Shown here: positions 1 through 62,723 of the stretch, one piece after another
How positions within the stretch are numbered: position 1 is the stretch's first letter
Layout of the letters: each line of letters starts with the position of its first letter
Assembly: GCA_905221605.1 (NCBI GenBank)
Contig: CAJNDS010000247.1
Span: forward strand, 744,138-808,137
Source: Symbiodinium natans
Taxonomy: Eukaryota > Sar > Dinophyceae > Suessiales > Symbiodiniaceae
DNA: 64,000 bases
Direction of reading: 5' to 3'
Position numbers and translations under genes: made by a program
Notes under the pieces: model-generated
What the model saw: only the letters and a program-made list of their open reading frames with translations
What the model was told of the DNA's origin: nothing
Databases searched by the model: none

Positions 1-129
1 AGAGCTTAAACAGCTGCTTCAGGTTTGTAAGGTCCCCGACCAATCCCCACCTGTAGACTCGCCCATAGCACTCTGCTTATTGGCATCTCGGCAGAGCCCT
101 AAACCCTAACCCTGAACATGCCCAAGCAG

Positions 130-231
130 GAAAACTCCGACTCAGCCTGCATGTCCTTGGTTGCGTTTGGAGCTGATTTGACGTGGCCTTTAAGGCTTAA
201 CTGCTTGGGGCAAAGTTGTAGCAAGTTTCTG
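130..231 (+). CDS. Exon, unknown protein, bracketed by telomere-like tracts
   Basis: The frame runs open from the ATG at 118 to the TGA at 280 and reads ENSDSACMSLVAFGADLTWP after the AG at 128-129. A C-rich tract (CCCTAAACCCTAACC) ends just before it at about 112 and G-rich sequence (GGCTTTAGGTTCGGG) starts at 231, the bracketing seen at most exons here. I do not recognise the product. The donor is not certain; G|GGCTTTAGG near 231 is the likely zone. Confidence 0.4.
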
Positions 232-620
232 GGCTTTAGGTTCGGGTTTCGGAGTCCCGAATCTGATTCTTCTGCTTGCTGAAGCACTCCTTTTGCTTTC
301 TGGTCGCAACTTTCTGGTCTGTTTGCTGAATAATTATTTTTTTTGCCAGTTTTTGTTTACACCTCCGCCGCTTCCTGGGTTGCCCGCCTCCTGAAACCCT
401 GCTTTATAAGAAAGGCAGTGCTCATGATGCTAATCTGATTATGGAGAATTGCGGTCCCGCGTTTTGTCTTCATTATTTGTCTGAAAAATAATGTGACAGG
501 ACAGATGCGGCCCGGAAACAGTAAAGTGTTTCTTTCGGTTCTTTCGGGTTGCGTGAAAGCTCTAGAAGGCCCCAAGCCCTAGCTAAGCCCTAAACCCTAA
601 GCCCTTAATCCATTCGGCAG

Positions 621-711
621 GCGCGACGGTCCCCCACGGGAGCACATGCAGCTCAGTCTGCGCGCTGGGTGCCACGGCGGTGCCTCTGCGAGCGATGGGA
701 TCCCTCACCCG
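621..711 (+). CDS. Exon, unknown protein, bracketed by telomere-like tracts
   Basis: After CCCTAAACCCTAAGCCC (584-604) and an AG at 619-620, one frame stays open to the TAG at 724 and includes GPPREHMQLSLRAGCHGGAS. The donor would be CCCG|GTTTACGG at 711-712, immediately followed by TTTAGGG copies. The next putative intron is only about 85 bases and is itself a hairpin (TTTAGGG at 724-737 against CCCTGAACCCTC at 745-756). Family not recognised. Confidence 0.35.
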
Positions 712-939
712 GTTTACGGTTTTTAGGGTTTAGGGTTGTGGACCCTGAACCCTCAATCCTGACCCCAAATCTAAACCCTCAACTCTAGTCCCTCGGCCCT
801 CATATCCATGACCCTGTGCCTAAAACATCAAGTCTAAAGCATGGTGATGGCGCCTGTAAGAGGCCGTGCGCGTGAACACATTTTATAGGGTACATTAGAC
901 CCTTGCGTCCTTTAGACACAGCAGTTGCATGTGTCGAAA

Positions 940-1225
940 ACAGCGAGGGCTGTGGCGATTTTTTCACGAAAGTGCATATTCGCTCGAAGCCTGATAGGAT
1001 TTGGGGCGTTTTTCTTTTCAGGGGGGGGTATATTTTTTTAAGTTTTGGCACGCCTATTTTGCCCAAATCACGCTCTCGCCACAGCGCTGGCGCGATTTCA
1101 GAATTACTAGCGCTGAACTTTAAAATCGCCCCCTTTGGTTTGGGCTTTCTTTGTCCGTGAATTTGCTGAGACATTCCTGGCTTGAAATCGCGCAATGGCC
1201 ACAGCGTGGGCGCGTTTTGCGAAAG
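940..1225. repeat. Diverged GC-rich short repeat, three copies
   Basis: Related segments occur at about 940-975, 1064-1103 and 1180-1225. They share CCACAGCG(T/C)(T/G)GG, gCGCG or GCGATTTT, and CGAAAG elements, partly in inverted order. They lie between the C-rich tract ending near 795 and the long G-rich degenerate tract 1252-1660. Open frames exist on both strands (about 180 codons on the minus strand) but composition gives no clear winner, so I do not call a gene. Confidence 0.35.
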
Positions 1226-1251
1226 AACAACTAAGTTTCTGCCAATATATT

Positions 1252-1665
1252 TGTAAAGGTTTAGAGTTGCAGGTTTTGGGTGCAGGGTTTGGGCTTGCAC
1301 TGCTTCGACTGCTCCTTCGGGTTGAGGGTGCAAGGGTTTGGGCACTTTTGGGGTTTAGGCTCACGGGTTCAGGTTCAGAAGGGTTTCAGGGGTTGGTTGC
1401 AGTGCTCCCGCTTTTGGTGTTGTGCTGTAGTGTTGAGAGGGTGTAGGGTTTAGGGTTTCAGGTTCGGGTTGCACTGCTGCCACTGTTTCTGCTGCTTTGC
1501 TGTTGTGTTTATATAGGGTTTAGGGCTGAGGCTTTGGGGGTGTAAGGCTTAGGGTTCAAGGTTTAGGGTTTCAGGTTGCGCTGCTCCGGCTGCTCCTTTC
1601 GGGTTGAAGGTGCAGGGGTTTGGGATTACACGGCTGGGGCGTTTGGGGTTTAGGCTCACGAGTTT
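1252..1665. repeat. Degenerate G-rich telomere-like tract
   Basis: About 400 bases of irregular TTTAGGG relatives (GTTTAGGG, GTTCGGG, GTGTAGGG, GTTTGGG, TTGAGGG) are mixed with CTGCTNCTGCT-type spacers. There is no convincing exon. It has the G-rich orientation expected at an intron start on the + strand. Confidence 0.6.
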
Positions 1666-2007
1666 GCTGCCAAGGTGTAGATGGGGGGTACGAGTGCAGC
1701 ATCGGCACCAACACGGGCATAAGCGAACAGTTTCTAGGGGTACCTTAATATGGTCCCTCTTTAAAAGGCGCTGAAGTGTGGGCCCTTGGGTTGCAGCAGG
1801 GTATATAAGGGTATGTACGGGGTCCCCTTTTCACGGCCTATTTTTTGGGACCATCAGTTTCAAGACTTTAGTTCAGGGTTTAGGGCGTTTGCTTCAAGGT
1901 GTTAGGCCATTCAGGCTTATGCCTTGCAAGCTACGCCGCATGTTTAAACCTATCATTGATACACACGAGTACCCTTGTTCAGTCTCCTGGTAGGTTATAC
2001 TTGGGAA

Positions 2008-2127
2008 CCCTCATCCTAAACCGCCTGAACCCTTACAACCCTTATAGCCCTTAAGCCCTGAACCCCCTGAACCCTAGAACCCTTCAGCCCTAAGCCCTTA
2101 ACCCTAAAACTCGAACTCAACACCTCC
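2008..2127. repeat. Degenerate C-rich telomere-like tract
   Basis: A run of CCCTAAAC, CCCTGAAC and CCCTTAA variants ends at CCCGCAG (2131-2137). A short open stretch with PQLFGAGMGT before TAG follows and could be a small terminal exon. The tract has the C-rich orientation expected at an intron end. Confidence 0.6.
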
Positions 2128-2209
2128 AACCCGCAGAAGCTGCCCAGGTGCCCCCAGCTCTTCGGTGCCGGGATGGGCACCTAGTGGCCCCAGGCCCAAC
2201 CATGTCATT

Positions 2210-2382
2210 TTGGGCCGTTCCTCCTTAGACTAACAGCTCCTTCATAGGGATTACAATGGGGGTTAGTGGAATCCCTATTGAGGACTCTAGAATACTAAGA
2301 GTACTTAATAGGGATTATCATAGAGGGGTAGTAGAATCCCTATTTAGGAAGGTTCGTATAAGTGGGAAGATCCAAAATTCAA
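2210..2382. mobile_element. MITE family A, copy 1, with 8-base target duplication
   Basis: Inverted-repeat element starting TTGGGCCGTTCC and ending in a reverse-complement-like arm (GTATAAGTGGGAAGATCC). Identical 8-base flanks ATGTCATT lie at 2202-2209 and 2383-2390. Internal inverted blocks AATAGGGATTA and AATCCCTATT match the other family A copies near 16.4, 22.2, 30.9 and 54.4 kb. No coding capacity, so non-autonomous. An 8-base duplication is typical of hAT-type transposition. Confidence 0.65.
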
Positions 2383-2747
2383 ATGTCATTCATCGCAGCT
2401 GAGCACTGATGGGTATATGGTGTTTGCGTACCTTATGTATCTGTGACCTCCAATATCATGTCCGTGCATCTTGCGTATCTGTACATACGTGCCTATGTGT
2501 GGTTGTTCATGGCGAACGCATCATGGACGCTTACATGTGCTTGTTCCTGGACTTGCCACGCCATGTTTCTTGCAAAACTTTCAGGCCGCACCGGACCTTC
2601 CTAGTTGAATTCAGACCCTCAGAGGTGTCCTAGGAAAGGGATTCCGAGAGTTTTGGGGGTTAGGTGAAGTGCTGGGGCCAAAGCCCCTACTCAGGGCTCC
2701 TGCAGCTTTTAAGTATCGCGTGGAGATGAAGCGGATAGGGGGACCAG

Positions 2748-2890
2748 GTGGTTCATTGTGGTTCATTGTCTCGGCGAAGAGTTGAGGGCGACCGCCCTGA
2801 GAGAGGCTACTATCAGGAGTTCATCACTTCCACCATTACCACCTCCACCTTTACGCGCACGTCGGCAACCTCGACGCCCTCAGCTCAGCT
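2748..2890 (+). CDS. Thr/Ser-rich protein gene, exon with module 1
   Basis: Opens after an AG at 2746-2747 (GGGACCAG|GTGG) and stays in one frame through SRRRVEGDRPERGYYQEFI and then a Thr/Ser stretch, TSTITTSTFTRTSATSTPSA. Thr and Ser are written with mixed codons (act, acc, acg, tcc, tcg, tca), which is what synonymous drift in a selected Thr/Ser run looks like. This is the first of about nine such modules to 6.14 kb. Thr/Ser runs of this kind are typical of O-glycosylated surface or secreted proteins. The stop TAA near 2897 implies a donor before it. Another + frame is open across this region (2758-3186), so exon limits are uncertain. Confidence 0.45.
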
Positions 2891-2973
2891 TTATAGATAA
2901 GCTCCGGTATAGTCGTCTGACATCTCGGTTCCGGTATGACAACGAGTGGCTTGCTGTGCAGCTTGAAGGTCAG

Positions 2974-3017
2974 TCACCAGCCGTACAACCACCAGCATCT
3001 CGCACACGTCAACACAG
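2974..3017 (+). CDS. Thr/Ser-rich module 1b
   Basis: Follows GGTCAG (AG 2972-2973) and reads TSRTTTSISHTSTQAG-like sequence. It would end at ACACAG before GCGGGG, a GC-type donor of the kind known in dinoflagellates. An overlapping frame gives a His-rich and then hydrophobic reading (GGAWIMWPLILLLLDKFFFA), so the assignment rests on likeness to the neighbouring Thr/Ser modules. Confidence 0.3.
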
Positions 3018-3138
3018 GCGGGGCGTGGATCATGTGGCCTCTCATTTTGTTACTTCTAGACAAGTTCTTCTTTGCTTTTTCGCCTCCATTTCTCTGAATG
3101 ATGGGAAAGATGAGAATGATAATAGTAAGATGGTACCA

Positions 3139-14331: not shown

Positions 14332-14940
14332 ATGGCCATCAGCTCAGCGTGGCAGTTGAGCCGGTGCATCCGGCGCGGCTTTGCGCGGCCTCGTCTGTTT
14401 CTTTTGAGAGGCCTTTCGCTGAAGCAAGAAGATGCCCCGCTGACCACGGTGACCCTGGGGGTGCGCAACAGGATGTTGCAAACTATGCTGCCAGGTAGGC
14501 CACGCCATCCGGCCAAGAGTTGCTGTACCAACATCCTGGATGTCCTGCTCAAGGCAGAGACCCGGCATCTGTTTCACGTTGACAAGTTTCACGTTGCCAA
14601 CCTTACCCGTACGCCGTACGAAAAAAAGGGGCAACACGGGGCCACAAGGCCTTCTTTGTCATTGGGATGTGTTTCTGTATGTTTCTGTATATATTCATTC
14701 GCATTCGAGGCGCAGACTGCGGGAAAAGGATACCAGGTCGCCGACATTGACATCGCACAGACTTGCTGCATATCAAAGGTAATTAGACCGGTCTCAGCGT
14801 TACAAATTTGCCAGGGGTTCCGGACTCGCGTCGCCCCCCTCCGCGGTGATGCGTTGGCAAGCGCAGTGGTGGCAGCCTTTCGGGACGACAACGGCAGGCA
14901 GGGTTGGCAGGGTTTTGGTTTTAGGATGCGGTCAGAGTAG
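14332..14940 (+). CDS. Longest + frame (202 codons), unknown protein
   Basis: Open without interruption from 14332 to 14940, with ETRHLFHVDKFHVANLTRTP, GKGYQVADIDIAQTCCISKV and, at its end, GDALASAVVAAFRDDNGRQG. It stops exactly where G-rich sequence begins (GGGTTTTGGTTTTAGG at 14911), as the bracketing rule predicts for an exon end near 14905. Several exons may be merged in it. Confidence 0.4.
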   Translation: MAISSAWQLSRCIRRGFARPRLFLLRGLSLKQEDAPLTTVTLGVRNRMLQTMLPGRPRHPAKSCCTNILDVLLKAETRHLFHVDKFHVANLTRTPYEKKGQHGATRPSLSLGCVSVCFCIYSFAFEAQTAGKGYQVADIDIAQTCCISKVIRPVSALQICQGFRTRVAPLRGDALASAVVAAFRDDNGRQGWQGFGFRMRSE

Positions 14941-15282
14941 GGTTTTGGATTTAAGGCCTTCAGGCTTTTCTGGTTGAAGGGTTTTGGATGGAGTTGCGGG
15001 ATGTCCAAGTGGCAGAGCCTTGGTGGGCCAGATGCTGCATGCCGCAGTCTTAGCGAACCCGACCTGAGGGGTTAGTATACTTGTTTTATATGGTAAGATA
15101 GGCAAGGGGTAGAGGGGGTAGTATACTTTGGCCATGCAAGCCACATCTGCTGATTCTGTGCTGAAGTTGAAGTTGCCGCAAAAGAAGCCTCGCCACGGTT
15201 GCACGCGCCTGGAAAAGCATCCTCTTGCAGACTCCAAAAACTCTCCAAGAGCCGTATCCCTCCTTGCTCCCACCAGAATCCT

Positions 15283-15382
15283 TAACCTAAAGCCCTAAAC
15301 CCCTAAACCCCTAAACCCCTAAACCCCTAAACCCCTAAACCCCTAAACCCCTAAACCCCCAAACCCCCAACCCCTAAACCAA
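15283..15382. repeat. CCCCTAAA-type tract
   Basis: About ten copies of an eight-base variant, CCCCTAAA, rather than the seven-base motif. It has C-rich orientation and is directly followed by the exon at 15410. Confidence 0.85.
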
Positions 15383-15409
15383 ACCCTCAGCCGAAGGATT
15401 TCCCTGCAG

Positions 15410-15489
15410 CCGGCACTTCTCCCCCCGCGCGGCTTGGCGCCCAGCCTGGGATGTGCCGTGGACGTGGGGGCCCGGAGCCTGGCAGGAGG
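15410..15489 (+). CDS. Bracketed exon, unknown protein
   Basis: Sits between the CCCCTAAA tract and GTTTGAGGTTTAGGGTTTAGGG. After CCCTGCAG (AG 15408-15409), the frame reads LAPSLGCAVDVGARSLAGGF and ends GGAGG|GTTTGAGG. It is about 70 percent GC, far above the surrounding tracts. One of the cleaner examples of the bracketing rule. Confidence 0.5.
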
Positions 15490-15692
15490 GTTTGAGGTTT
15501 AGGGTTTAGGGTTTGGGGGCATAACTGTGGGGAGTGGATTTAGGGTTCACAGTCGAATGGTAGGGACTGATGGGACTTATAGGGTTCATGTAGGGATTTA
15601 GACTTGGAGTCTTTTTATAAGCCGAAAGAGATTCACGGCTTGTCGGGCACCAGCGGTTTTAGGCCTCCGGGTATGTGCTTTGGAAGAGGTTT

Positions 15693-15840
15693 GCCAGGAG
15701 CATGTTGTCGAGCACTCATGGTGTTCACGGTGCCCAGGGTGTTTGGTTCAGACTTGGTCGTTTATGCTTTCAGAGCGCAGCGTGCCAAGCCAGTGTTATG
15801 TGTCATTGTCTCTTGAGGAGGGCCGGGGCCTGGTGATCTG
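15693..15840 (+). CDS. Exon, unknown protein
   Basis: After TTTGCCAG, one frame reads EHVVEHSWCSRCPGCLVQTW and SERSVPSQCYVSLSLEEGRG to TGA near 15838. A second + frame (15604-15816, 70 codons) overlaps and cannot be excluded. Confidence 0.35.
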
Positions 15841-15914
15841 ATTCACGTGGGCCGGAAGGGGCGTCCCTTGTTGGCGAGCCTGTCTAGAGTAAGGAGTCTA
15901 CGAACAAGTAACTC

Positions 15915-16023
15915 ATGAGGGGGATGCTCATCTGGCCCAGGCCGCGGCATCTCCAAGAAATCATCAAGCTTGAGTTGATGTCATCAGCCATGTGGGGTTC
16001 ACCGCTTAGGTACTGGAATTCAG
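15915..16023 (+). CDS. Exon ending at a G-rich tract
   Basis: The open frame from the ATG at 15915 reads HLQEIIKLELMSSAMWGSPL and then RYWNSG. It ends TTCAG|GTTTTTTTAGGTTTAGGG, so the donor GT is the start of the G-rich tract. Confidence 0.45.
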
Positions 16024-16048
16024 GTTTTTTTAGGTTTAGGGTTCAATC

Positions 16049-16170
16049 ATGTCCGTTTTTGTACTGGAAGAGCTGGCTTTGAAGGCCTCTGTGGATGACC
16101 TGCAGCTCTTCGCCTCCTCTGGTGGCGTGCTGTGGTTGCTCTACAGCTCAGAAGAAGGCACGTTACAATG
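16049..16170 (+). CDS. Exon, unknown protein
   Basis: Reads MSVFVLEELALKASVDDLQL, then FASSGGVLWLLYSSEEGTLQ. It ends ACAATG|GTGAGC, a good GT donor. Helical amphipathic pattern; family unknown. MITE D copy 2 begins 20 bases downstream. Confidence 0.5.
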
Positions 16171-18196: not shown

Positions 18197-18310
18197 GTGT
18201 CGCCCGACGTCGTCCTCTCTGCCGGCGTGACAAAGGTGACTGGCGTCGCTGTGGCAGCCTCGGCCTCCGTTCATCTCCTGAACGACTGGGCCCTGAGCCC
18301 TGAAAATCGA
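18197..18310 (+). CDS. Bracketed exon, exact GT/AG limits
   Basis: Bounded by AACACCCTAAAAGCGTCAG| and |GTTTAGGGGC, giving 114 bases or exactly 38 codons: VSPDVVLSAGVTKVTGVAVA, ASASVHLLNDWALSPENR. Phase 0 at both ends. The donor GT is the first two bases of the telomere-like unit. Composition suggests a secreted or membrane-proximal protein; family unknown. Confidence 0.5.
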
Positions 18311-18964: not shown

Positions 18965-19008
18965 CCCCTAAACCCTAAACCCTAAACCTTAAACCCTAAA
19001 CCCTAAAC
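18965..19008. repeat. CCCTAAA tract left of exon 19010
   Basis: Six CCCTAAAC units in C-rich orientation. With the G-rich tract 19116-19208 it brackets a 106-base exon; the two tracts are complementary and could pair. Confidence 0.85.
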
Positions 19009-19009
19009 C

Positions 19010-19115
19010 GTGGCTCTTGAGGCCGTGCTCCTCTATGAGGTCCAGAGCCAAGAGGCTGCCACCACGCCACTCACGCTGACCCGCGTGGCCAGGCTGGAGG
19101 CGTCCTCGGGCTTTG
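19010..19115 (+). CDS. Type example of a bracketed exon, helical protein
   Basis: Frame VALEAVLLYEVQSQEAATTP, then LTLTRVARLEASSGF. It is GC-rich between AT-balanced tracts. It ends GGCTTTG|GTTTAGGG, so the donor is the telomere-like motif. The acceptor may be CTCTTGAG|GCC at 19021. It resembles coiled-coil sequence. Confidence 0.55.
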
Positions 19116-19208
19116 GTTTAGGGTTTAGGGTTTAGGGTTTAGGGTTTAGGGTTTAGGGTTTAGGGTTTAGGGTTTAGGGTTTAGGGTTCAGGGTTCAGGG
19201 TTCAGGGT
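19116..19208. repeat. TTTAGGG tract right of exon 19010
   Basis: Ten perfect TTTAGGG units followed by three TTCAGGG units. The switch to a variant in a block points to local amplification. Confidence 0.9.
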
Positions 19209-19288
19209 AGTGCCTTAGGTGTTTTAGGGTAGCTCCCCAGTACCTTTAGCTTTCGGGCTTCGGGGTCTTGGGTCTGAGCGACTCGCAG

Positions 19289-19421
19289 GGTCGAAGGGAT
19301 GCACAAAGATTCTGGGAAAGTCGAGCCACAAACGATCAAAAACCATGCAAAAGCGGGCAAAACAGTTAGCAACGTTAACTTGAGTTCTTTGAAGACGATG
19401 AATGAAGAACTAAGAAGTTAA
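19289..19421 (+). CDS. Exon, Lys-rich protein C-terminus
   Basis: After GACTCGCAG, the frame reads VEGMHKDSGKVEPQTIKNHA, then KAGKTVSNVNLSSLKTMNEE and LRS before TAA at 19419. Hydrophilic and Lys-rich. A second frame (RRDAQRFWESRATNDQ) overlaps its start. Confidence 0.45.
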
Positions 19422-19429
19422 CTTCCCGT

Positions 19430-20130
19430 TGCAAGTAAGTGGAATATGCGTTTGTTTGGAGGGCGAGCATTTGCTGTTTGCAAGAAAGCCCACGTTTCAG
19501 GATTGTCTCATCTTCACAACCGGGTCTGTTACAGTTCAGTCGACTCTCTGCTTTGATAAAGTGATCCGTGCTTCCATAGCAATCATACTAAAGGTCCTTT
19601 AAACCTCATTCGCGAACCACAGTGGATGATTCACAGACTCGGAAAAGTGATGTGATATATTCTCATGGACAAAGCGAAGCACATGAAATCATATGTCTTG
19701 GGATATCAATCGAATGAATCAACAACATACCCTGCATCTTAATCTTCTTCATTTCGTAGCTATGAGTTGATGTTATGTCAAGGAACCTTGCCTGCCTGAA
19801 CTGTATACACAAATTTAGACACTGATGGAACTATAGATTTGTCAAACCCAAAACGGCGAGCGAGTCATTAAAGAAGCAACAGATGACAGCGAAACCTGGT
19901 TCTCTAAATTTCAGAAATGATATATTGGAATTCACCCCTTCGTCCACCAAATGGCCGAAGCACATTGACGCACCAAAGTTCGATACACTGTCATCTAGCC
20001 ATGTATCTGATGTCGCAGTTCTCGTCATGATTTGTTCATGTTTGCGCGGAAGTGGAGGCCTGAAGTCCTGGACATAAAAGCAGGTTGTCGAGCTTGTAGT
20101 TAGGGATGGTGCTTCGATGAAGATCTTCCA
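19430..20130. other. AT-richer stretch with one 64-codon + frame
   Basis: GC content drops compared with neighbours. A + frame at 19883-20077 (GSLNFRNDILEFTPSSTKWP) and a minus frame at 19831-20028 overlap. I see no repeat tract, MITE or splice-bounded exon that decides it. It could be an untranslated or intergenic region. Confidence 0.3.
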
Positions 20131-20188
20131 AGATCCGACGCATTAAGCCCTAAAATCCCTGGATTTTCATCAGCCTTTGTATGTTATG

Positions 20189-20242
20189 CACATACATATA
20201 TATGTTATTGCTATTGTGTATATATATATATATATAGATATC
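20189..20242. repeat. AT microsatellite
   Basis: Runs of TATATATA with ACATACATATATATG on the left. A second AT array lies at 20920-20997. Confidence 0.85.
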
Positions 20243-20282
20243 GTAATAGTAACAGTACGCGTAAGACTAAGAACAACAACAC

Positions 20283-20411
20283 CCTGTTCCTTCGGCTGCT
20301 AAGCCCGAAGCGAAGCCCAAAAGTCTAAAGCGCTTGGAGGATCCCTCGAGCACGCCGGTCCTTGGTGAGGAACAGGTCTTGAATGAGGCGGCACAGAGAA
20401 TGCTCTCCTGA
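20283..20411 (+). CDS. Terminal exon, charged protein
   Basis: Reads AAKPEAKPKSLKRLEDPSST, then PVLGEEQVLNEAAQRMLS and TGA. A Lys/Pro-rich linker is followed by a helical C-terminus. Downstream is G-rich GGGTTTAATTCGGGTTTAGGG. Confidence 0.5.
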   Translation, partial: PVPSAAKPEAKPKSLKRLEDPSSTPVLGEEQVLNEAAQRMLS

Positions 20412-21105: not shown

Positions 21106-21202
21106 CTAAACCCTGAGCCCTAAGCCCTAAACCATAAACCCTAAGCCCTAAACCCTGCGCCCTAAACCCTAAGCCCTAAACCCCCGAACCCCTAAACCCT
21201 TT
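21106..21202. repeat. CCCTAAG/CCCTAAA tract
   Basis: Mixed CCCTAAAC and CCCTAAGC units in C-rich orientation, just before the exon at 21230. Confidence 0.8.
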
Positions 21203-21229: not shown

Positions 21230-21310
21230 GATGCACGCCGCCCATCCGCCTCCTCCACCCTTCGCCTGGGTCGCATTGGCGGGTGGTCGCTGAGCAGAGT
21301 AGTAGAGTCA
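21230..21310 (+). CDS. Exon after a C-rich tract, basic protein
   Basis: After CAGTTCGCAG, the frame reads DARRPSASSTLRLGRIGGWS, then LSRVVES. Arg/Ser-rich. The true end may be at GAGCAG near 21297. Confidence 0.4.
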
Positions 21311-23394: not shown

Positions 23395-23486
23395 GAAAAC
23401 CCTGAACCCTAAACCCTAAACCCTAAACCCTAAACCCTAAACCCTAAACCCTAAACCCTAAACCCTAAACCCTAAACCCTAAACCC
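23395..23486. repeat. CCCTAAA tract, 12 units
   Basis: Near-perfect seven-base units in C-rich orientation that run straight into the AG of the next exon (AAACCCAG|TCATC). Confidence 0.9.
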
Positions 23487-23488: not shown

Positions 23489-23550
23489 TCATCGAGTTCT
23501 GCGATCCAGGTGGCGATGTTGCTGCCCGTTGCAGGGGACTCTTGGCCTAA
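23489..23550 (+). CDS. Exon whose acceptor is the end of a telomere-like tract
   Basis: AAACCCAG|TCATCGAG: the frame reads VIEFCDPGGDVAARCRGLLA and stops at TAA 23548. This is the most direct case of a CCCTAAA tract supplying the 3' splice site. MITE B copy 3 follows. Confidence 0.5.
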
Positions 23551-25470: not shown

Positions 25471-25550
25471 AAAGAAGGAGGCGGCCTTCTTTCGGCTGAG
25501 CGGCTGCCATCCGCAGCCCTGCACAGCGCCGCAGGGTGTCCGGGTCCAGG
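25471..25550 (+). CDS. Bracketed exon, unknown protein
   Basis: Lies between CCCTAAACCCTAAGCC (25436-25452) and GGGTTTTTTTGGG. After CCCCACAAG, the frame reads KKEAAFFRLSGCHPQPCTAP, then QGVRVQ. It ends TCCAGG|GTTTTT. The two Cys and flanking residues suggest an extracellular or folded domain; family unknown. Confidence 0.45.
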
Positions 25551-28201: not shown

Positions 28202-28615
28202 ATGGGGTCCCCGACCCTGGGAGGAGATCAAGAGAAAGTCGATCTCACTTTCCGGGATCCTGTAGAATTTGCCCGGTTAGGAGACAGGCAATTTGACGCT
28301 TCCAAGACACCATTGCAACTTCATCTTCCAGCCTACCTTTCCGCTTCGCTCCGCGCGTTGCAATTCTACAGTGACTACAGGGGGCCCTGGAGTCGCATGC
28401 CGAGTGTTACCCCAAATCAGAATTCGTATCCTGTGGTTTGGGTTTTCACTGCGATGCTTTTCTGCGATAGTGGAACTTTCGAGAAGGTTTGGGTTGGCCG
28501 TGTCCTTCCTGGTACCAAGATCGCTCCACTCGCTGAAAGCAACAAGAATGCGCCGAGTCTTGACTTTGTAACTGTGAGCCCTAGAGCCGTTAATGGAGAC
28601 CACCCAAACCCCTAA
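28202..28615 (+). CDS. 137-codon frame, unknown protein
   Basis: Reads DQEKVDLTFRDPVEFARLGD, QLHLPAYLSASLRALQFYSD, SYPVVWVFTAMLFCDSGTFE and KNAPSLDFVTVSPRAVNGDH. Convincing composition, but it lies between a G-rich tract (28145-28205) and a C-rich tract (28606-28735), the position predicted for an intron. It may be an exon with the tracts belonging to neighbours, or a retained intronic frame. Confidence 0.35.
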   Translation: MGSPTLGGDQEKVDLTFRDPVEFARLGDRQFDASKTPLQLHLPAYLSASLRALQFYSDYRGPWSRMPSVTPNQNSYPVVWVFTAMLFCDSGTFEKVWVGRVLPGTKIAPLAESNKNAPSLDFVTVSPRAVNGDHPNP

Positions 28616-28735
28616 ACCCTAAACCCCGAAGCCTAAACCATAAACCCGAAACCCTAAACCCTAAACCCTAAAACCTAAAACCTAAACCCTAAACCCTAAA
28701 CCCTAAACTAAACCCTAACCCTAAACCCTAGAGCC
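28606..28735. repeat. C-rich telomere-like tract
   Basis: CCCTAAAC units with CCCGAAGC, CCTAAAAC and CCCTAAAC variants over about 130 bases. Confidence 0.85.
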
Positions 28736-28845
28736 CCTTAATGAAGACCACTGCGTCGAGACGCGAGGACCCAAGCTGCCGGGAGGGGTTCCAGATCCCC
28801 ATCGGCCAGCGATGTCGCCCTGCCTGCCTTGAGGGCCCGGGGCCC

Positions 28846-32621: not shown

Positions 32622-32742
32622 GTCCTGGCTGAGCTGCCCGTTGCGCGCGCCGCCCTTCGCGCGGCCTCCAGCGCCGATGCACTCCGGGGGGCCGCGGCCG
32701 CTGCCTTGCGAACACCGGAGGAGCAGGCAAGGCTTGCGGAGG
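32622..32742 (+). CDS. Ala-rich exon, 5' side of the best-resolved telomere-like intron
   Basis: After AAGCTTGAG, the frame reads LAELPVARAALRAASSADAL, RGAAAAALRTPEEQARLAEG. Strongly coding: Ala-rich amphipathic helix, about 70 percent GC. It ends GCGGAGG|GTTTGAGG with one codon base over; the next exon opens in the matching phase. Helical proteins of this kind often form coiled coils or scaffolds; no family assigned. Confidence 0.6.
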
Positions 32743-32992
32743 GTTTGAGGGCTTGAGGGTTTTGAGGGTGTTGAGGGGTTGAAGGCTTGAGGGTTTTGAG
32801 GGTTTTGGGGTTTTGATGGTTTTGAGGGTGTGAGGGCTTAAGGGCTTGAGGGCTTGAGGGTTTTGAGGGTTTTGAGGGCTTGAGGGCTTGAGGGCTTGGG
32901 GGGGATTCAGGGTTTTGGATTGGGTTTTGTTGAGGGTGCGGTGCTGTTGTTGGGGTTTAGGGCTTCCTAACCCTAAACCCTAATCCTTTTAG
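32743..32992. other. Intron bounded by telomere-like repeats
   Basis: 250 bases starting GTTTGAGGGCTTGAGGG and ending CCCTAAACCCTAATCC then TTTTAG. The first 210 bases are G-rich variants (GGGCTTGAGGGTTTTGA), the last 25 are C-rich, so the two ends can pair. Splicing keeps the frame open on both sides. Confidence 0.6.
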
Positions 32993-33109
32993 GGCTGGAG
33001 GGTCCGGCCAGGCGGGGAAGTCGGAGGCTCGGACTCTCTAAGCCTCATCTAGTCCTCTTTTCTTTGACATTGCCATTCCTGGCTTTAGTTGAAAGGGCTT
33101 ATGTGTGGG
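32993..33109 (+). CDS. Exon, 3' side of the telomere-like intron, with hydrophobic stretch
   Basis: In the phase set by the upstream exon it reads GLEGPARRGSRRLGLSKPHL, then VLFSLTLPFLALVERAYVW. A basic patch precedes a likely membrane or signal-anchor helix. It ends GTGTGGG|GTTTAGGG at the next G-rich tract. Another frame stops early (TAA at 33047). Confidence 0.5.
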
Positions 33110-34093: not shown

Positions 34094-34462
34094 TTGAAGA
34101 CAACGCTTCCAAAACATGTGCGCACTGCTGGCTTCCGCGGCAGACAGAAGCTGGCTCGAATCCTTGGCTCGCCTCCCCAGCTCGTTTCCATGCTGCTCTC
34201 GCGTGTCGATACCTTATCTGACTCCGAGAGCGAGGACAGCAACGAGAAGAAGCCACATCCACACGGGGGCCTCACCCGCGCCGAGATCACGAAGCAAACC
34301 ATTCAGAAAACGCAGGCCGAGCTGGCGCGCAAGATGAAGAAGCTCCGGGAGGACAAAGAGAAAGCCAAGCTGGCAGCGCAGCGCAAGGCCAAGGCCAAGA
34401 AGGAGTTGGAGAAGAAGGTGAGGGCTGGCAAAAGGGCCGAAAAGGCCCTCCGAAACTTCTGA
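34094..34462 (+). CDS. Lys/Glu-rich coiled-coil C-terminus
   Basis: 122-codon frame. From about residue 40 it is clearly protein: SRVDTLSDSESEDSNEKKPH, then TRAEITKQTIQKTQAELARK, MKKLREDKEKAKLAAQRKAK and RAGKRAEKALRNF before TGA. An acidic Ser/Glu patch (a good casein kinase target) is followed by a long basic coiled coil with heptad-like spacing. Such tails occur in nucleolar and RNA-binding proteins; no specific family can be named. The upstream third may belong to an intron. The high charge and clean stop make this one of the best coding calls in the window. Confidence 0.6.
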   Translation: MKTTLPKHVRTAGFRGRQKLARILGSPPQLVSMLLSRVDTLSDSESEDSNEKKPHPHGGLTRAEITKQTIQKTQAELARKMKKLREDKEKAKLAAQRKAKAKKELEKKVRAGKRAEKALRNF

Positions 34463-42799: not shown

Positions 42800-42911
42800 C
42801 AACCCTAAATCCCAAACTCTAAACCCTAAACTCTAAACCCTAAACCCTAAACATCCCTAAACCCTCAACCCTAAACCCCAAACCCCAAACCCTAAACCCT
42901 AATCCCTAGAC
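42800..42911. repeat. C-rich telomere-like tract
   Basis: CCCTAAA units mixed with CTCTAAA and CCCCAAA; ends CCCTAGACAG|, the acceptor of the next exon. Confidence 0.85.
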
Positions 42912-42913
42912 AG

Positions 42914-42989
42914 GTGCAGAGCCAGCTGGAGCCACCGCGCCCACCTGAACAGGCCACCATGGAGGCCGGAGGGTTGGTGAAAGCTGGGG
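42914..42989 (+). CDS. Bracketed exon, Pro/Glu-rich
   Basis: CTAGACAG|GTGCAG to AGCTGGGG|GTTTCC: 76 bases reading VQSQLEPPRPPEQATMEAGG, then LVKAG. The left tract is CCCTAAA; the right is GGTTTAGTGTTTAGGG. First of several Pro/Ala-rich exons to 44.9 kb. Confidence 0.55.
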
Positions 42990-43269
42990 GTTTCCTTTTT
43001 AGGGGTTTAGTGTTTAGGGTTTTCAGGGTATCTAGGGTCGAAAGAAGGACTTTTCAAAGTCCCTTATGGTCCTTATATAGTTTTACTCGAATAACACCCC
43101 ACACCCTATTCCAAGTATTCTGGGCCCAAGAAAACCAATAATGTAAGCCCTTACACCTTCAACCTCAAAAACTGAAACCTATGTAAACCCACCTTCAACC
43201 TCAAAAACTGAAGCCTTTCAACCAAGAAAGCCTCACAGCCTTGCACCCCCAACGCCTAAAACGAGAGCG

Positions 43270-43379: not shown

Positions 43380-43452
43380 TTGATGGGGTTTCGAAGGCGC
43401 CGCCACCACGCCGCCGCCTCTCGCAGCGACTCCAGAAGGCTGAGGGGTTTTG
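43380..43452 (+). CDS. Bracketed exon, Pro/Arg- or Ala/Pro-rich
   Basis: Between the CCCCAAA tract and (TTTAGGG)n at 43478. Frame one reads LDGVSKAPPPRRRLSQRLQK, then AEG. Starting after CGAAG (43402) in the phase left by the previous exon, it reads AATTPPPLAATPEG. Both suit a Pro-rich linker. Confidence 0.45.
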
Positions 43453-48130: not shown

Positions 48131-48190
48131 ATGCAACAATCACCCTAAATCCTAAACCCTAAACCCTAAACCTTAAACCTTCTGATGGAG

Positions 48191-48307
48191 AGTGGAGAGG
48201 CAAGATAGCGTACCAAGCCGGAGTTCCCAAGCGCCGCCTGATCGATGTACCGTGGGCAAAGGCGTGGGAGCGATCAAGCAGACAGGCTCGTCGGTTCACC
48301 TGCCTCT
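48191..48307 (+). CDS. Gene at 46.7-49.5 kb, exon 6, bracketed
   Basis: Between the CCCTAAA tract and CTCT|GTGAGTTTAGG. Reads GKIAYQAGVPKRRLIDVPWA, KAWERSSRQARRFTCLC. Basic, Trp-containing; very protein-like. The donor is GTGAGT merging into TTTAGG. Confidence 0.55.
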
Positions 48308-48449
48308 GTGAGTTTAGGATAGAGTGCGGTGGGGTTTAGGGCGTAGGTTTTAGGCATCCGGGTCCAGGATTTAGGGTTTAGGGTCTATGTGTGTCCTGAG
48401 TTTTAGGGAGTCTGGGGCTCTGTCCGGGCATCGTGCCTGAATCACGCCC

Positions 48450-50851: not shown

Positions 50852-50992
50852 ACGCTGAACCCTAAACTATAAACCCTAAACCCTAAACCCCAAACCCTAA
50901 ACCCTAAACCCTAAACCCTAAACCCCAAACCCTAAACCCTAAACCCTAAACCCTAAACCCTAAACCCTAAACCCTAAACCCTAAACCCTAAC
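50852..50992. repeat. CCCTAAA tract, about 20 units
   Basis: Long near-perfect seven-base array in C-rich orientation. Confidence 0.95.
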
Positions 50993-51019
50993 CCCCCCCC
51001 GTCTCACTATGGGCCGCAG

Positions 51020-51062
51020 CGCAGGTGGCCCTCGCAAAGTTAGACCGCGAGCCGCCCTGGAG
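51020..51062 (+). CDS. Micro-exon with consensus splice sites
   Basis: GGGCCGCAG|CGCAGG to CCTGGAG|GTGAGC. Reads AQVALAKLDREPPW. Bracketed by the CCCTAAA array on the left and TTTAGGG copies from 51090 on the right. Confidence 0.45.
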
Positions 51063-51084
51063 GTGAGCTCCGGGCTGAAATGCA

Positions 51085-51330
51085 CGGTTTAGGGTTGAGG
51101 GTTTGGGGTTTAGGGTTAGGGTTTAGGGTTTAGGGTTTAGGGTTTATAGTTTAAGGTTTGTGTTGTCGTGTTAGGGGTTCGGGCGTTCGGTTTGGGGTTG
51201 GCAGTTTGTTATGTTGGGGGTTTTGAGGTTGAGAGTTGTAGGTGGTTTGTGGTTTAGGGTTTGGGGATTATAGTTTGGGGTGTGGGGCTTGGGGTTCAGG
51301 ATTTGACTTTTCGGTTGTAGGTTGAAGGGC
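51085..51330. repeat. G-rich degenerate telomere-like tract
   Basis: TTTAGGG units, then GTTGAGGG, GTTTGGGG and TTGTAGG variants fading with distance from the exon. Confidence 0.8.
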
Positions 51331-56755: not shown

Positions 56756-56935
56756 AGCTGAAGGTACCTAATAGGGCTTATAGGGTTAGAGGGTTTTCAG
56801 GCTTTCGGATGTTTCGGGTAATTGCCTTTCACCCCAAAACAGAGGGTAAGATGTTGTGTGGGTCATTGTTATGTACGGGGGGCTGCTGTGCGACTCCCGC
56901 CTCTCGACGAAGGTCGCCCGCTGGACACAAAGTAC

Positions 56936-57058
56936 CCTAAACCCTGAACCCCAAACCCTAAATTAAAAACCCTAAACCCTAAACCCTAACCCCTAACCCC
57001 TAAACCCTAATTAAACCCTAAACCCTCAACCCTCAACCCTCAGCCCTCTACTAAACCG
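56936..57058. repeat. C-rich telomere-like tract
   Basis: CCCTAAAC, CCCTAACCC and CCCTCAAC blocks, each repeated two or three times in a row. Confidence 0.85.
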
Positions 57059-57065
57059 CCCTCAG

Positions 57066-57122
57066 GAGCAGCAGCGGCAGCGCGAGCAACTTCTTGACTG
57101 CAAGGACTCCTGGGCATGTTGA
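57066..57122 (+). CDS. Coiled-coil gene, exon 4 (micro-exon)
   Basis: CCGCCCTCAG|GAGCAG. Reads EQQRQREQLLDCKDSW, with TGA at 57120. A GC donor (CTTGACT|GCAAGG) would avoid the stop. Bracketed by C-rich and G-rich tracts. Confidence 0.55.
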   Translation, partial: EQQRQREQLLDCKDSWAC

Positions 57123-57139
57123 CCGAAGGCCACGTAATC

Positions 57140-57208
57140 TAGTTTAGGGTTTAGGGTTTAGGGTTTAGGGTTTTTTAGGGTTTAGGGTTTAGGGTTTAGG
57201 GTTTAGGG
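57140..57208. repeat. TTTAGGG tract
   Basis: Nine units with one TTTTTTAGGG interruption. Confidence 0.9.
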
Positions 57209-58981: not shown

Positions 58982-59027
58982 CCTCAACCCCAAGCGCTCA
59001 AGCGAAGCACTCCCTTGAAACCCGAAG

Positions 59028-59096
59028 CCGCGAGGGAGGAGTATGATCAAGATGTGAGCAAGCTCACAGAGGTGAACGAAGAGGTGCCGCACTCTG
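59028..59096 (+). CDS. Coiled-coil gene, exon 7
   Basis: AACCCGAAG|CCGCGA to CACTCTG|GTTGTG, 69 bases: AAREEYDQDVSKLTEVNEEV, PHS. Heptad-like. Downstream G-rich array at 59110. Confidence 0.6.
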
Positions 59097-59109
59097 GTTG
59101 TGGAATGGT

Positions 59110-59418: not shown

Positions 59419-59476
59419 TTCAGCGAGACCCTATTTAGGGGATAGGTTGTGGGTTTTAGGGTTTAGGGTTTAGGGT

Positions 59477-60050
59477 TTAGGGTTTGGGGTTGGCCAATCC
59501 CCTTGTTTTGTTCAACGCTCCCCTGCGATTACAGACCTTCCGCGAACCGTTTGTATTCAGGTTGCGAATCTTGCGGTAGAAGACGCCATGGCTTCGGACG
59601 CCATCGCAGCACCGTCTGTGACTACGCGAACTTTTCTTGCCGCCCCAACCTAGTGGCCACGGCCAAACTGTGTATAGCCTCCGCCCATCCGTGCAAGGAG
59701 CGATGGTGATGGACTTTCTTGGGTTACACAGAGCCACACCGCTCAAGACCCCTTTAGCCCCTGGAATCCTAAAGCGCCTGAAGCCGGGTTGCGGCAACGC
59801 TCCCAGGTCGCCGGTCTCTCCGAAGTTGAGGAGGCGATCACCGCACTGGAGGTCACCGTTTCTTATCATGACTTGCGGCGGGCTCTGCTGGTCAATGTTT
59901 ACAGACGAGAGCTTTGCTGCGATGACTCGGAGTAGCAGACTCTTCATTACCGGTCGCCCCCCCCCCAATAGAACAAACTGTCTGCTTGCGATGATCTGCG
60001 CAAACGCCCAATTGCAGAGTTTGAGCCTTTTACGCTACAGGCTCTCAGAG
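59477..60050. other. Intronic stretch with long frames on both strands
   Basis: A 163-codon minus frame (59477-59968) and a 181-codon + frame (59637-60182) overlap. The + frame (KRLKPGCGNAPRSPVSPKLR, WSMFTDESFAAMTRSSRLFI) is the more protein-like but runs into MITE D and telomere-like repeats at its end. It lies between a G-rich and a C-rich tract, where an intron is expected. Confidence 0.35.
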
Positions 60051-60077
60051 CCGGATGCTTTGGGATGCCAAGGGGTC

Positions 60078-60211
60078 CATATATGGGGGTTTCCGATATT
60101 GAAATTGGGGCTACCCTATTGGGGTCCTTCTTACAAGGGAACCCTAAACCCTAAACCCGAAACCCTAAACCCTAAACCCTAAACCCCCTAGTTTCGCAAA
60201 CCCCCATAATG
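60078..60211. mobile_element. MITE family D, copy 8, with telomere-like repeats inside
   Basis: TATATGGGGGTTTCCGATAT at the left and CCTAGTTTCGCAAACCCCCATA at the right are the normal MITE D ends. Between them, after TTACAAGGGAA, lie six CCCTAAA units (60139-60186) that other copies lack. Confidence 0.7.
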
Positions 60212-60215
60212 ACAG

Positions 60216-60263
60216 GAGCAACAGGCCATGCTCCAGAAGGAGCTGCAGCGACTCACGGCTTGA
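60216..60263 (+). CDS. Coiled-coil gene, last exon
   Basis: ATAATGACAG|GAGCAA follows MITE D directly. Reads EQQAMLQKELQRLTA and TGA at 60261. Same Gln/Glu/Leu heptad style as exons 1, 3, 4, 7 and 8. Because all of these lie on one strand within 6 kb and share composition, I take them as one coiled-coil protein ending here. Confidence 0.6.
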   Translation, partial: EQQAMLQKELQRLTA

Positions 60264-60274
60264 ACCTGAGCCCT

Positions 60275-60368
60275 CGGTTTAGGGTTTAGGGTTTAGGGTT
60301 TAGGGGTCAGGGTTTAGGGTTTAGGGTGTAGGGTGTAGGGTGTAGGGTGTAGGTAGGGTGCATACTTT
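60275..60368. repeat. TTTAGGG then TGTAGGG tract
   Basis: Four TTTAGGG units, then five units of GGTGTAG. Downstream of the presumed stop codon. Confidence 0.9.
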
Positions 60369-60372
60369 CAGG

Positions 60373-60492
60373 GTCTTGGAAGCTCTTCTGACTTAGTAAG
60401 TCTACTTAGTATCCCCTAGAAACCCCTCTTATAATCCCCCCAACCCACCTTGCTAATCCTACTTACTAAGTCAAAAGGGCTTCTAAGCAGGC
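60373..60492. mobile_element. Inverted-repeat element, family H (single copy)
   Basis: GAAGCTCTTCTGACTTAGTA pairs with TACTAAGTCAAAAGGGCTTC, about 24 paired bases per arm. Non-coding. Confidence 0.65.
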
Positions 60493-60654
60493 TTTTGGTG
60501 CCCAAAGCTTGCTGAGGGAAGCACGTCTCCCAGGTTTTGGTTCTTTTCTGGAGCGTTGCGGTGGGCCTTGATGTGTTGCTGTCTACGGAAAGGGGCAAAC
60601 CGGTCGGATCATACCCACGAGGACCACTTGACCCAAAGGGTCCTGGTATCTTTT

Positions 60655-60730
60655 TTAAATCAAAAATATGTAGATAAATAAATATAGTTAGAGAGAGAGA
60701 GAGAGAGAGCCAGAGAGTAGATATGCCCCA
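60655..60730. repeat. AT-rich sequence with (AG)n microsatellite
   Basis: TAGTTAGAGAGAGAGAG then CCAGAGAG. Confidence 0.8.
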
Positions 60731-60849
60731 AGGCTAATACAATGGAGCCTGCTTAAGACCCAAGTACATATCATATATCATATTATGTGGGTACATAGGC
60801 CCTTTAGGTAAAGTTGCCCACGCTGAACGCAACGTCAACGGCCTAGGCC

Positions 60850-61535
60850 TGGCCCTGAACCCTAGAATCTTAAACCCTAAACCCGAAACCCTGGCCTATA
60901 CAGGTTTTGTTTTGAGAACCCTGAACCAAAGCCCTACCCACGATCCCCAAAAGGGAGCTACATTTCGGGGTCTAGGTAGCACCGAAGCAGCTCAGATGAC
61001 GCTCAAACATTCCTAACCTCATCCCTTAAACCTAAACTTATAAACCCTAAAACCCGAAACCGTTGAACCCTTAAGACCTGAGATTTAAATTAAACCCTCC
61101 GCCTTGCGACCTGACACCCAAACCCCCAGGCCTAAACCCCAAACCCTAAACCCCAAACCTAAACCCTGAAACCTACAATCCCTGAACCCCCAAACCTAAA
61201 CCCTTCAACCTAAACCCTAACCCCCCAGACCTTAACCCTTTAACTCTGAACCCTTAAACCCTTAGCCTTTAAACCCATAATCCCTGAACCCCCAAACCCT
61301 ATAACCTAAAACTTAAACCTTCAGCCCCTAAACCGATATTCCCAGAACCCCCAAACCCTAAACCCCAAACCCTAAGCCGCTCGTTGCAGCAGCAAAATGC
61401 CAACACACTTCTAAAAAACATCCAAATCCTAAACCCTAAACCCTAAACCCCTAAACCCTAAACCCTTAAACCCCTAAGCCCTAAACCCTAAACTCTAAAC
61501 CCTAAACCCTAAACCCTTATAAACCCGAAGTTGCG
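60850..61535. repeat. Long degenerate C-rich telomere-like array
   Basis: Nearly 700 bases dominated by CCCTAAAC-like units with many one-base variants, most regular in the last 120 bases (61430-61520). It ends at an exon. Confidence 0.85.
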
Positions 61536-61542
61536 ACCCCAG

Positions 61543-61587
61543 GCGTCTACGCCGCGCGGCCGGGGGACCAGGCCTGGGTCGCTCAGG
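61543..61587 (+). CDS. Bracketed micro-exon, 45 bases
   Basis: GCGACCCCAG|GCGTCT to GTCGCTCAGG|GTTTAGGG. Reads GVYAARPGDQAWVAQ. 75 percent GC between a 700-base C-rich array and a 220-base G-rich array. The neatest micro-exon in the window; product unknown. Confidence 0.55.
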
Positions 61588-61830
61588 GTTTAGGGTTTAG
61601 GGTTTAGGGTTTAGGGTTTGGGGTTTAGGGTTTGGGGTTGAAGGTTTCGGGTTTGGGGTTTAGGGTTTGGGGTTTAGGGTTTGGGGTTTAGGGTTTAAGG
61701 TTTAGGGTTTAGGGTTTGGGGTTTAGGGTTTGGGGTTTCGGGTTTAGGGTTTGGGGTTGAGGGTTTAGAGCTTAGTCGAGGGTTGACGGTTGAGGGTTTA
61801 GGGTTTAGGGACCCTAAACCCTAAACCCAA
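61588..61830. repeat. G-rich array with terminal C-rich units
   Basis: TTTAGGG, TTTGGGG and TTGAGGG units to 61808, then ACCCTAAACCCTAAACCC. The whole can fold on itself. Confidence 0.9.
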
Positions 61831-62192
61831 TGGGGAGTACTGGTAGGGGATGAAAAAGATTAGGGGTATCATTGTCTCGCATGGGTCCCTGTGGTCGGGG
61901 GTTTTAGGTTTTCAGCTCAGGTTTTGGTTTCTTGCAATTATTTTTTCTGTTAAGGGTGTAGGTTTCTTGAAAGGAGTTCAGGGTTTTTTGGGGGTTCTTG
62001 TTTTTGCATCTCACGGCGGCTTTGGGGTGTTTGGGATCCTTTAGGGGGGGAGTTTCTAGGGCTTTAGGGTTTTGATTCCCTAAACAGCGTTTAGGGGTGT
62101 AGGGATGGGCTTAGGATGTTGTAGCTCCGGACCTCGTCCGTGGTGGTTGCAGCTTCTGCTGTGAGGCTTCCTACCGATGTTTCTGTTTGCTT

Positions 62193-62365
62193 GCAGGGCT
62201 TAGGGCTCATGGAGGCCTTAGATCTCGACAGGCTACATTCGAAATTGCTTTGGCATGTGCTGCTCGGGGCGCAGGAAGATCAAGCTGTTGTTGTTTGTTG
62301 CGCCCGCGTTTGTTTGCGAAGATCCCTGTCTTGAAAAATACCACGCTGCCTTGACGGCCAAGCAG
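62193..62365 (+). CDS. Gene at 62 kb, exons before a tiny intron
   Basis: After GCTTGCAG, one frame reads GLGLMEALDLDRLHSKLLWH, VLLGAQEDQAVVVCCARV. A second frame, after GGGCGCAG (62272), reads KIKLLLFVAPAFVCEDPCLE, KYHAALTAKQ and ends GCCAAGCAG|GTGACG. Probably two exons. Leu-rich, with four Cys. Confidence 0.45.
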
Positions 62366-62397
62366 GTGACGTGCTGTAGCCTTCTCTCGCCCCCCAG

Positions 62398-62568
62398 GAA
62401 TTCTGTGGCGCACAAGCCGAGCGGGCACAGACCGTCCAGAGCACTGTGAGCCACTGCGGAAGAGTCGAAGTCGTAGAGCTGTGGCAACCGCCCACCGGCA
62501 TTCTTTCAACTGTTCTTGCTCGTTTCGCCGGAATTCCTATTTGCTGGATATACACAGTTCTCAAGTAG
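62398..62568 (+). CDS. Gene at 62 kb, exon after a tiny intron
   Basis: After CGCCCCCCAG, the frame reads EFCGAQAERAQTVQSTVSHC, GRVEVVELWQPPTGILSTVL, ARFAGIPICWIYTVLK and TAG. The frame is closed by TAG at 62377 just upstream, as expected if 62366-62397 is an intron; phase 0 on both sides. C-terminal hydrophobic helix. Confidence 0.5.
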   Translation, partial: EFCGAQAERAQTVQSTVSHCGRVEVVELWQPPTGILSTVLARFAGIPICWIYTVLK

Positions 62569-62659
62569 GCAGCCGTTTGCCCTGAAGGGGACGGCAAGGG
62601 CAAGCCAAAACTTTTTAACCGGGACCGCGGTTCCGCAACACTTGGAAAGCTTGAATTTA

Positions 62660-62723
62660 GGAGGGTTTAGGGTTTAGGGTTTAGGGTTTAGGGTTTAGGG
62701 TTTAGGGTTTAGGGTTTAGGGTT
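62660..62723. repeat. TTTAGGG tract, 9 units
   Basis: Perfect seven-base array, G-rich orientation, about 90 bases after the preceding stop. Confidence 0.95.

Follow-up and report, generated by a model that had tools for sequence, protein, structure and literature searches.

Telomeric repeat tracts beside exons of Symbiodinium natans and a tract that appears to have become an intron

How introns originate is a long-standing question, and recent, readable cases are few. A stretch of 64 kb of nuclear DNA of the dinoflagellate Symbiodinium natans (positions 744138-808137 of contig C247, here called the window) raises this question through tracts of the telomere-like repeat TTTAGGG, or CCCTAAA on the other strand, which stand beside short coding-like islands. 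An earlier note on this DNA had read the tracts as the complementary ends of introns, able to fold into hairpins and perhaps driving the spread or splicing of these introns. The explanation favored here, which we regard as moderately probable, is that the tracts are interstitial telomeric repeats left by break repair, each in a single orientation, which occasionally create introns and whose orientation is filtered by splicing. Insertion is supported by the data, and we infer the role of telomerase and the splicing filter.

Analysis of repeat content revealed 163 copies of TTTAGGG and 146 copies of CCCTAAA in the window. The density of the tokens TTAGGG and CCCTAA was 6.0 per kb, compared with 0.49 per kb expected from base composition. 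It was 4.7 per kb in four flanks of the window and 15.8 per kb in six stretches of contigs C1, C2, and C80, the latter value being biased upward because two of the six (L005 and L006) were chosen at known repeat positions. Genome-wide counts span an assembly of 759.4 Mb in 2,543 contigs; the published assembly is given as 0.76 Gb in 2,855 scaffolds (PMC10666404). The 21-mer (TTTAGGG)3 had 1,185,204 forward and 1,184,385 reverse matches (2.37 million), and a control of the same 21-mer read backward had 41 and 33. In 36 of 43 sequences examined, AAACCCT led the tandem heptamers with 2,814 triple-repeat positions, followed by a heptamer with 212; the top units of 5, 6, 8, and 9 bases reached 10, 64, 82, and 137 positions. 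Variant telomeric units were common among the tracts. The predominant unit is that of the host telomere, TTTAGGG being the unit described for dinoflagellates at large rather than for S. natans itself (PMC11453091).

Three annotated S. natans proteins were mapped to the genome. P0121 (757 amino acids, "Sushi domain-containing") aligned exactly, as a spliced product with identical translation, to positions 14332-34960 of the window on the forward strand. This gene has 39 exons (median, 55 bases; range, 27 to 261) and 38 introns (median, 419 bases), the last of which, 37 bases long, is doubtful. P0001, a member of the short-chain dehydrogenase family, maps to locus L007 with 9 introns, and its paralogue P0003 maps exactly to contig C2151 with 8, so that P0121 and P0001 together provide 47 introns and all three genes provide 55. 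The gene models are the published annotation; published S. natans models combine RNA sequencing, IsoSeq, and ab initio tools (PMC8045281). They are evidence of splicing, short of proof for each junction.

A telomeric token was present in 34 of the 55 introns. In the set of 47, TTAGGG tokens lay mainly in the 5' half (44 of 60, with 16 in the 3' half), and CCCTAA tokens lay almost entirely in the 3' half (97 of 103, with 6 in the 5' half). When the mean position per intron was used, G-rich tokens fell in the 5' half of 13 introns and the 3' half of 6, and C-rich tokens in 3 and 20, respectively (Fisher p 0.0004); with P0003 included, these counts were 14 and 7 for G and 4 and 20 for C (p 0.0009). 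A sign test on C tracts alone was significant in the 47 introns (p 0.0005). Within 100 bases of the splice sites, G was found near the 5' end in 10 introns and near the 3' end in 5, and C in 4 and 18 (p 0.005), where narrowing the window by 6 bases lowers the count of 18 to 17; the 55 introns gave 12 and 7 for G and 5 and 19 for C (p 0.011). Again among the 47, the first TTAGGG followed the donor by 18 to 130 bases in 12 of the 19 introns having one (176 to 1072 bases in the remaining 7), and the last CCCTAA preceded the acceptor by 6 to 43 bases in 16 of 23 (63 to 945 bases in the remaining 7). These distributions, together with the genome-wide counts given below, indicate that tract orientation is strongly non-random, as the earlier note had claimed. 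Its proposal that the tracts sit in introns was also borne out in the mapped genes, where these introns are absent from the annotated products.

One tract appears, from sequence and annotation, to have landed in coding DNA and to be an intron now. Intron 4 of P0003 is 71 bases long and consists of GCTGAG, a C-strand telomeric tract, and a short stretch finishing in CTGGAG. The sequence GCTGGAGGCTGAG is complete on each side of the tract, with a perfect 13-bp repeat across both junctions. Because GCTGGAGGCTGAG is duplicated around the tract, removal of the intron at AG|GC and AG|G leaves an uninterrupted coding sequence, and the spliced product without the tract is the P0003 protein. A new intron between direct repeats that bear both splice sites was found here only. 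The site is free of any insertion in two homologues, P0002 and P0006, and the model fitted to the paralogue on C2089 has no intron at this point. A copy of the gene on C2051 encodes the same protein with an intron 4 of 64 bases, one unit shorter. The two copies (C2151, 158390-162737; C2051, 256687-261027) are 99.3% identical by blastn, lie in opposite contig orientation, and represent either alleles or the outcome of a recent duplication. The DNA upstream of P0003 showed no remnant of a spliced leader. Introns 3 and 8 of this gene (108 and 109 bases, tractless; L017/L014 on C2151, and also on C2051) are introner-like, with 4-base direct repeats at their junctions; blastn aligned intron 3 from one copy with intron 8 from the other at about 84% identity.

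Traces of insertion were also found elsewhere. The 22-base flanks of 15 of 242 tracts shared a direct repeat that was 8 bp or longer and not telomeric, compared with a mean of 1.35 and a maximum of 3 in 60 flank shuffles. Six of the 15 were judged by eye to be telomere-like or to lie in a tandem array of L005, leaving 9 of 242; the shuffles were not sorted in this way. Target duplications or similar scars therefore mark 9 to 15 of the 242 tracts, in addition to the 13 bp in P0003. Flank comparison showed bordering direct repeats of 8 to 13 bp at some tracts. They include CTGCTTTGTG at L006 6480-6533, TTAAAAGGT at L004 3503-3563, the 9-bp GTTGTAGGT around a G tract at 51244-51304 of the window, and CCACTGCC within a P0001 intron (L007 7561-7607). 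A tandem array with CACCATTT repeats in L005 (6459-6562) contains telomeric tracts.

The splice sites themselves seldom coincide with the tract ends. Donors of the 55 introns were GC in 32, GT in 15, and GA in 8, and the acceptor was AG followed by G in all 55, although these counts arise partly by construction, the aligner preferring GC/GT/GA and AG|G where a junction can slide. All 55 conform to the pattern of spliceosomal introns in dinoflagellates, whose donors are GT, GC, or GA and whose AG acceptor as a rule precedes a G. A donor of the form G|GTTTAGGG, as proposed earlier, was found in 0 of 55 introns, none of which begins with the tract. On the acceptor side few introns fit the proposal, 4 of the 55 ending within 8 bases after a CCCTAAA. 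At the acceptor placed at 23489, downstream of a C-rich tract at 23397-23485 (tract scan and P0121 alignment), the mapped site is 20 bases further, at 23509.

The hairpin ends ascribed to each intron were likewise seldom recovered. G near the donor together with C near the acceptor was found in 4 of the 55 introns, and among the 47 the 4 observed are at expectation (3.4) or, by a second estimate (5.1), below it. Introns with hairpin-forming ends are rare. An inverted repeat at both ends of one intron, in a scan for telomeric repeats only, was confined to these four. Pairing was instead seen across exons: G followed 6 of 15 C-preceded exons and 3 of 30 other exons in two genes (Fisher p 0.026; 0.003 to 0.026 across four distance settings), and within-gene shuffles gave p 0.012 for distances of 150/150 bases and p 0.12 for 100/60. 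Tracts pair across the exon more than across the intron, a result that, with two genes and several settings tried, is suggestive. Since such pairs span the exon, foldback would loop out the exon and not the intron. The tracts look like separate insertions of single orientation and not like paired termini of a single mobile element.

Exon-sized spacing between tracts was also present genome-wide. The search was annotation-free, demanded two exact units per side, and counted match starts, so that long arrays are counted several times. At spacings of 80 to 110 bp, C-to-G arrangements gave 83,227 matches and G-to-C arrangements 35,412; at 300 to 330 bp the numbers were 143,516 and 134,098, and at 20 to 50 bp C-to-G gave just 3,854. 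In 14 of 43 sequences examined, nearest-neighbor C-to-G gaps measured 60 to 180 bp in 32 of 49 cases and less than 60 bp in none; of the G-to-C gaps, 2 of 43 measured 60 to 180 bp. All four strict C-to-G units of 30 to 240 bp in the three mapped genes enclose an annotated exon in full (0.54 expected), which indicates that, wherever a test is possible, the exon-sized spacing is linked to exons.

From these results the following course of events is proposed. Tracts of TTTAGGG units would have been inserted separately, in one orientation each, most likely at staggered double-strand breaks and possibly with the help of telomerase. In the mapped genes they lie in introns, often near exons; their orientation is biased, and their repeat unit is almost wholly telomeric. 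In some cases the short direct repeats around them are such as staggered-break repair leaves. Where an insertion with target duplication hit coding DNA at AG|GC, as sequence and annotation suggest for P0003, the duplicated target would provide both a donor (GC) and an acceptor (AG|G), and the insertion, missing from the annotated product, would have been an intron from birth. Mapped splice sites require little (AG|G at the 3' end, G followed by T, C, or A at the 5' end), and so a duplicated AG|GC suffices. Splicing might then filter orientation and leave the order C tract, exon, G tract. Such a filter is plausible: near an acceptor, TTTAGGG would supply AG|G, the motif found at the acceptors of all 55 introns, whereas CCCTAAA has no AG. 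G triplets are known as intronic enhancers, and a G-rich strand near the donor may act likewise, but this donor-side reason for G-tract orientation is a guess. The explanation is least secure in accounting for the orientation bias, where its main rival is telomerase priming on the exon-side break end. A wider claim is tentative and, in our judgment, rather unlikely to hold: that healing of breaks with telomeric repeats is a main source of new S. natans introns, insertions into coding DNA being tolerated as the permissive AG|G[CTA] splice code removes them at once, with telomerase extending exon-side break ends and so giving the outward-reading bracket around exons.

Several observations weigh against the break-repair explanation. 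Clear origin from a telomeric tract was found for a single intron, and the model fitted to the paralogue on C846 has an unrelated, tractless intron of 782 bases at the same position and phase; this could mark an older intron site instead of a fresh gain. A perfect 13-bp repeat at both junctions, however, is hard to obtain from an old intron. None of the intron positions of P0003 recurs in P0001 (0 of 8 and 0 of 9), and one recurs in C846, which fits a gene that lost and then regained introns, gaining twice at a single AG|G site. No direct repeat of at least 8 bp was found beside 227 of the 242 tracts; age and slippage could have erased them. For G tracts alone the sign test in the 47 introns was not significant (13 versus 6, p 0.17), and P0003 intron 5 has a G tract near its acceptor, contrary to a strict AG rule. 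Pairing across exons rests on two genes, and an offset pairing, in which C near an acceptor goes with a donor-side G in the preceding intron, is also somewhat above expectation (5 versus 3.0 and 7 versus 4.6). Outside the window the coding score beside tracts was weak (G tracts, p 0.14; C tracts, p 0.03), and a six-frame openness test gave no informative signal.

Among the alternatives, the best survivor holds that base composition seeds the tracts. On the sense strand, intron DNA would be G/T-rich on the donor side and C/A-rich on the acceptor side, telomerase would prime after a break on the outward 3' end on the exon side, and mutation rather than selection would set the orientation. This accounts for the outward reading of G on both sides of exons and for the clustering of pairs by exon, and the first 60 bases of tractless introns do contain more G than C (0.296 versus 0.236). 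The 3' ends of the same class of introns are hardly biased, however (C 0.242 versus G 0.232), in a sample of just 16, and we consider this reading unlikely.

It is quite unlikely that the tracts are terminal inverted repeats of introner-like mobile introns that start with G, end with C, fold into hairpins, and spread as units. In Symbiodinium microadriaticum, introners are reported to have terminal inverted repeats and to come with target duplications (PMC9860276), and introns with inverted and direct repeats are described in Amoebophrya (PMC7789003). P0003 has introner-like introns 3 and 8, and the mean junction direct repeat was 3.19, compared with 2.78 in shuffles, 1 of 1,000 of which was as high. 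Interiors of G-to-C segments gave 1,206 non-self matches; among the 25 of these matches listed, 14 lay at tract edges and 11 were stretches of 26 to 86 bases that some interiors have in common with other places. Against this stand the rarity of introns with both tracts, their co-occurrence at or under expectation, direct repeats that abut the tract itself in several cases, and the genome-wide excess at 80 to 110 bp, which is C-to-G and not G-to-C.

Plain microsatellite slippage from chance seeds, requiring neither break repair nor telomerase, is likewise quite unlikely. It would explain the common variant units and the one-unit difference between the near-identical P0003 copies (71 versus 64 bases), but not the dominance of one heptamer, the telomere unit (2,814 versus 212 positions), or the flanking non-telomeric direct repeats, which point to insertion. 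An assembly artefact or contamination, for which no support was found, is hardly credible, since annotated S. natans proteins map exactly across tract-bearing introns and the pattern is genome-wide (83,227 matches).

Related phenomena are known in other organisms. In human and horse, telomeric repeats were inserted at double-strand breaks, sometimes with target duplication, which in mammals results from staggered breaks; none of the human interstitial telomeric sequences lies in a coding exon, and an effect on splicing was called worth testing (PMC7215372). The S. natans tracts resemble these sequences in being short and, in some cases, flanked by a direct target duplication, but they are far commoner, stand beside exons, are biased in orientation, and in one case form an intron. 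With dinoflagellate introners (PMC9860276, PMC7789003; Roy et al. 2023) they share intron gain, short junction duplications, and inverted repeats near intron ends, whereas most mapped S. natans introns lack paired telomeric ends and several direct repeats flank the tract itself. Introns of Amorphochlora amoebiformis are similar in their exons of about 100 bp, long simple-repeat introns, and gains at AG|GN, but the repeat there is (AT)n, and the parts of that paper covered report no telomeric unit or orientation rule (PMC12730881). Unlike introners, the tract-bearing S. natans introns form no demonstrated whole-intron family, though they have short stretches in common. In the staggered-break or AGGT duplication model of intron gain, the target duplication provides both splice sites. 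The S. natans case agrees in its duplicated splice sites and differs in its filler, a telomeric repeat, and in its GC donor. A term search of the main text of the S. natans genome paper yielded neither "telomer" nor "introner," and telomeric intron ends are described in no title or abstract opening among the literature matches listed, the full texts of which were covered partly. With more than 1 million matches of the telomeric 21-mer per strand, arranged around exons, S. natans provides a large natural experiment in how breaks are repaired, how introns are born, and how tolerant splice sites are, and published RNA and long reads are suited to testing telomeric intron birth there.

In the window, the bracketing of coding-like islands by tracts was confirmed for most of the 14 islands singled out earlier: 10 have CCCTAA at most 100 bp upstream and TTAGGG at most 100 bp downstream, and 4 do not. 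One flanking tract is missing at 130-231, 32622-33109, and 43380-43452, and 59028-59096 has G tracts on both sides and no C tract. Island 18197-18310 has an extra TTAGGG upstream besides its proper bracket. The islands are exons where P0121 allows a test, all five within 14332-34960 overlapping an annotated exon and two starting exactly with it (18197 and 32622), but the proposed ends overshoot the true exon ends by 15 to 383 bases. The nine islands outside P0121 are coding-like at best. A protein search over 36-64 kb of the window found no annotated protein, and another query with the same islands matched P0121 alone. Exon prediction outside P0121 placed exons at 42914, 43397, 57066, 59035, and 61543, among others, and the coding score beside tracts was significant within the window.

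Tract scanning combined with the P0121 alignment or gene mapping located the following features in this gene, all exons lying on the forward strand. A C-rich tract (15293-15387) in the 3' part of intron 14898-15396 precedes the bracketed exon 15397-15469, and a G-rich tract (15487-15546) follows in the 5' part of intron 15470-16084, which has a GC donor. Exon 18197-18250 has a single CCCTAA upstream and TTAGGG downstream. The bracketed exon 19022-19099 lies between a C-rich tract that stops 15 bases short of the acceptor (18966-19007) and a G-rich tract that begins 18 bases past the GC donor of intron 19100-20339 (19117-19187). Upstream of exon 21230-21285 is a C-rich tract (21106-21200), and the intron that follows is without TTAGGG. 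Exon 25478-25535 has C upstream and the first TTAGGG 109 bases into the following intron. C-rich tracts at 28610-28729 precede exon 28768-28834, with their last CCCTAA 43 bases from its acceptor, and G is present near the donor of this intron as well. At exon 32622-32726, the island 32622-33109 extends into the intron. Inside a P0121 intron and on the same strand (34118-34450, forward) lies a Lys/Glu-rich open frame with one of the top coding scores and no Pfam match.

Outside P0121, the order C tract, coding-like island, G tract was found by tract scan at 588-736, 48142-48408, and 50859-51145 and, with exon prediction in addition, at 42802-43022 (coding-like island 42914-42964). Predicted exons occupy the middle position at 56934-57208 (exon 57066-57113), 60141-60327 (exon 60216-60257), and 61429-61810 (exon 61543-61587).

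An Rfam scan of the window gave 0 matches, and Pfam analysis of ten long open reading frames gave nothing informative. Searches with PF12777, PF00118, and PF00069 for intron-rich genes produced, among the matches listed, mostly long open frames. Dynein loci (L021-L032) contained 0.34 telomeric tokens per kb, near the chance level of 0.49, and kinase loci (L033-L042) contained 0.61 per kb (7 tokens in 11.5 kb; 10 of 50 stretches), both sets being mostly coding and hence an unfair control. At L007 5795-5915, a long palindrome-like stretch, GGTTGTCAAAATTATGGTCCC ... GGGATCATAATTTTGACAACC, surrounds a single TTTAGGG and resembles a small inverted-repeat element.

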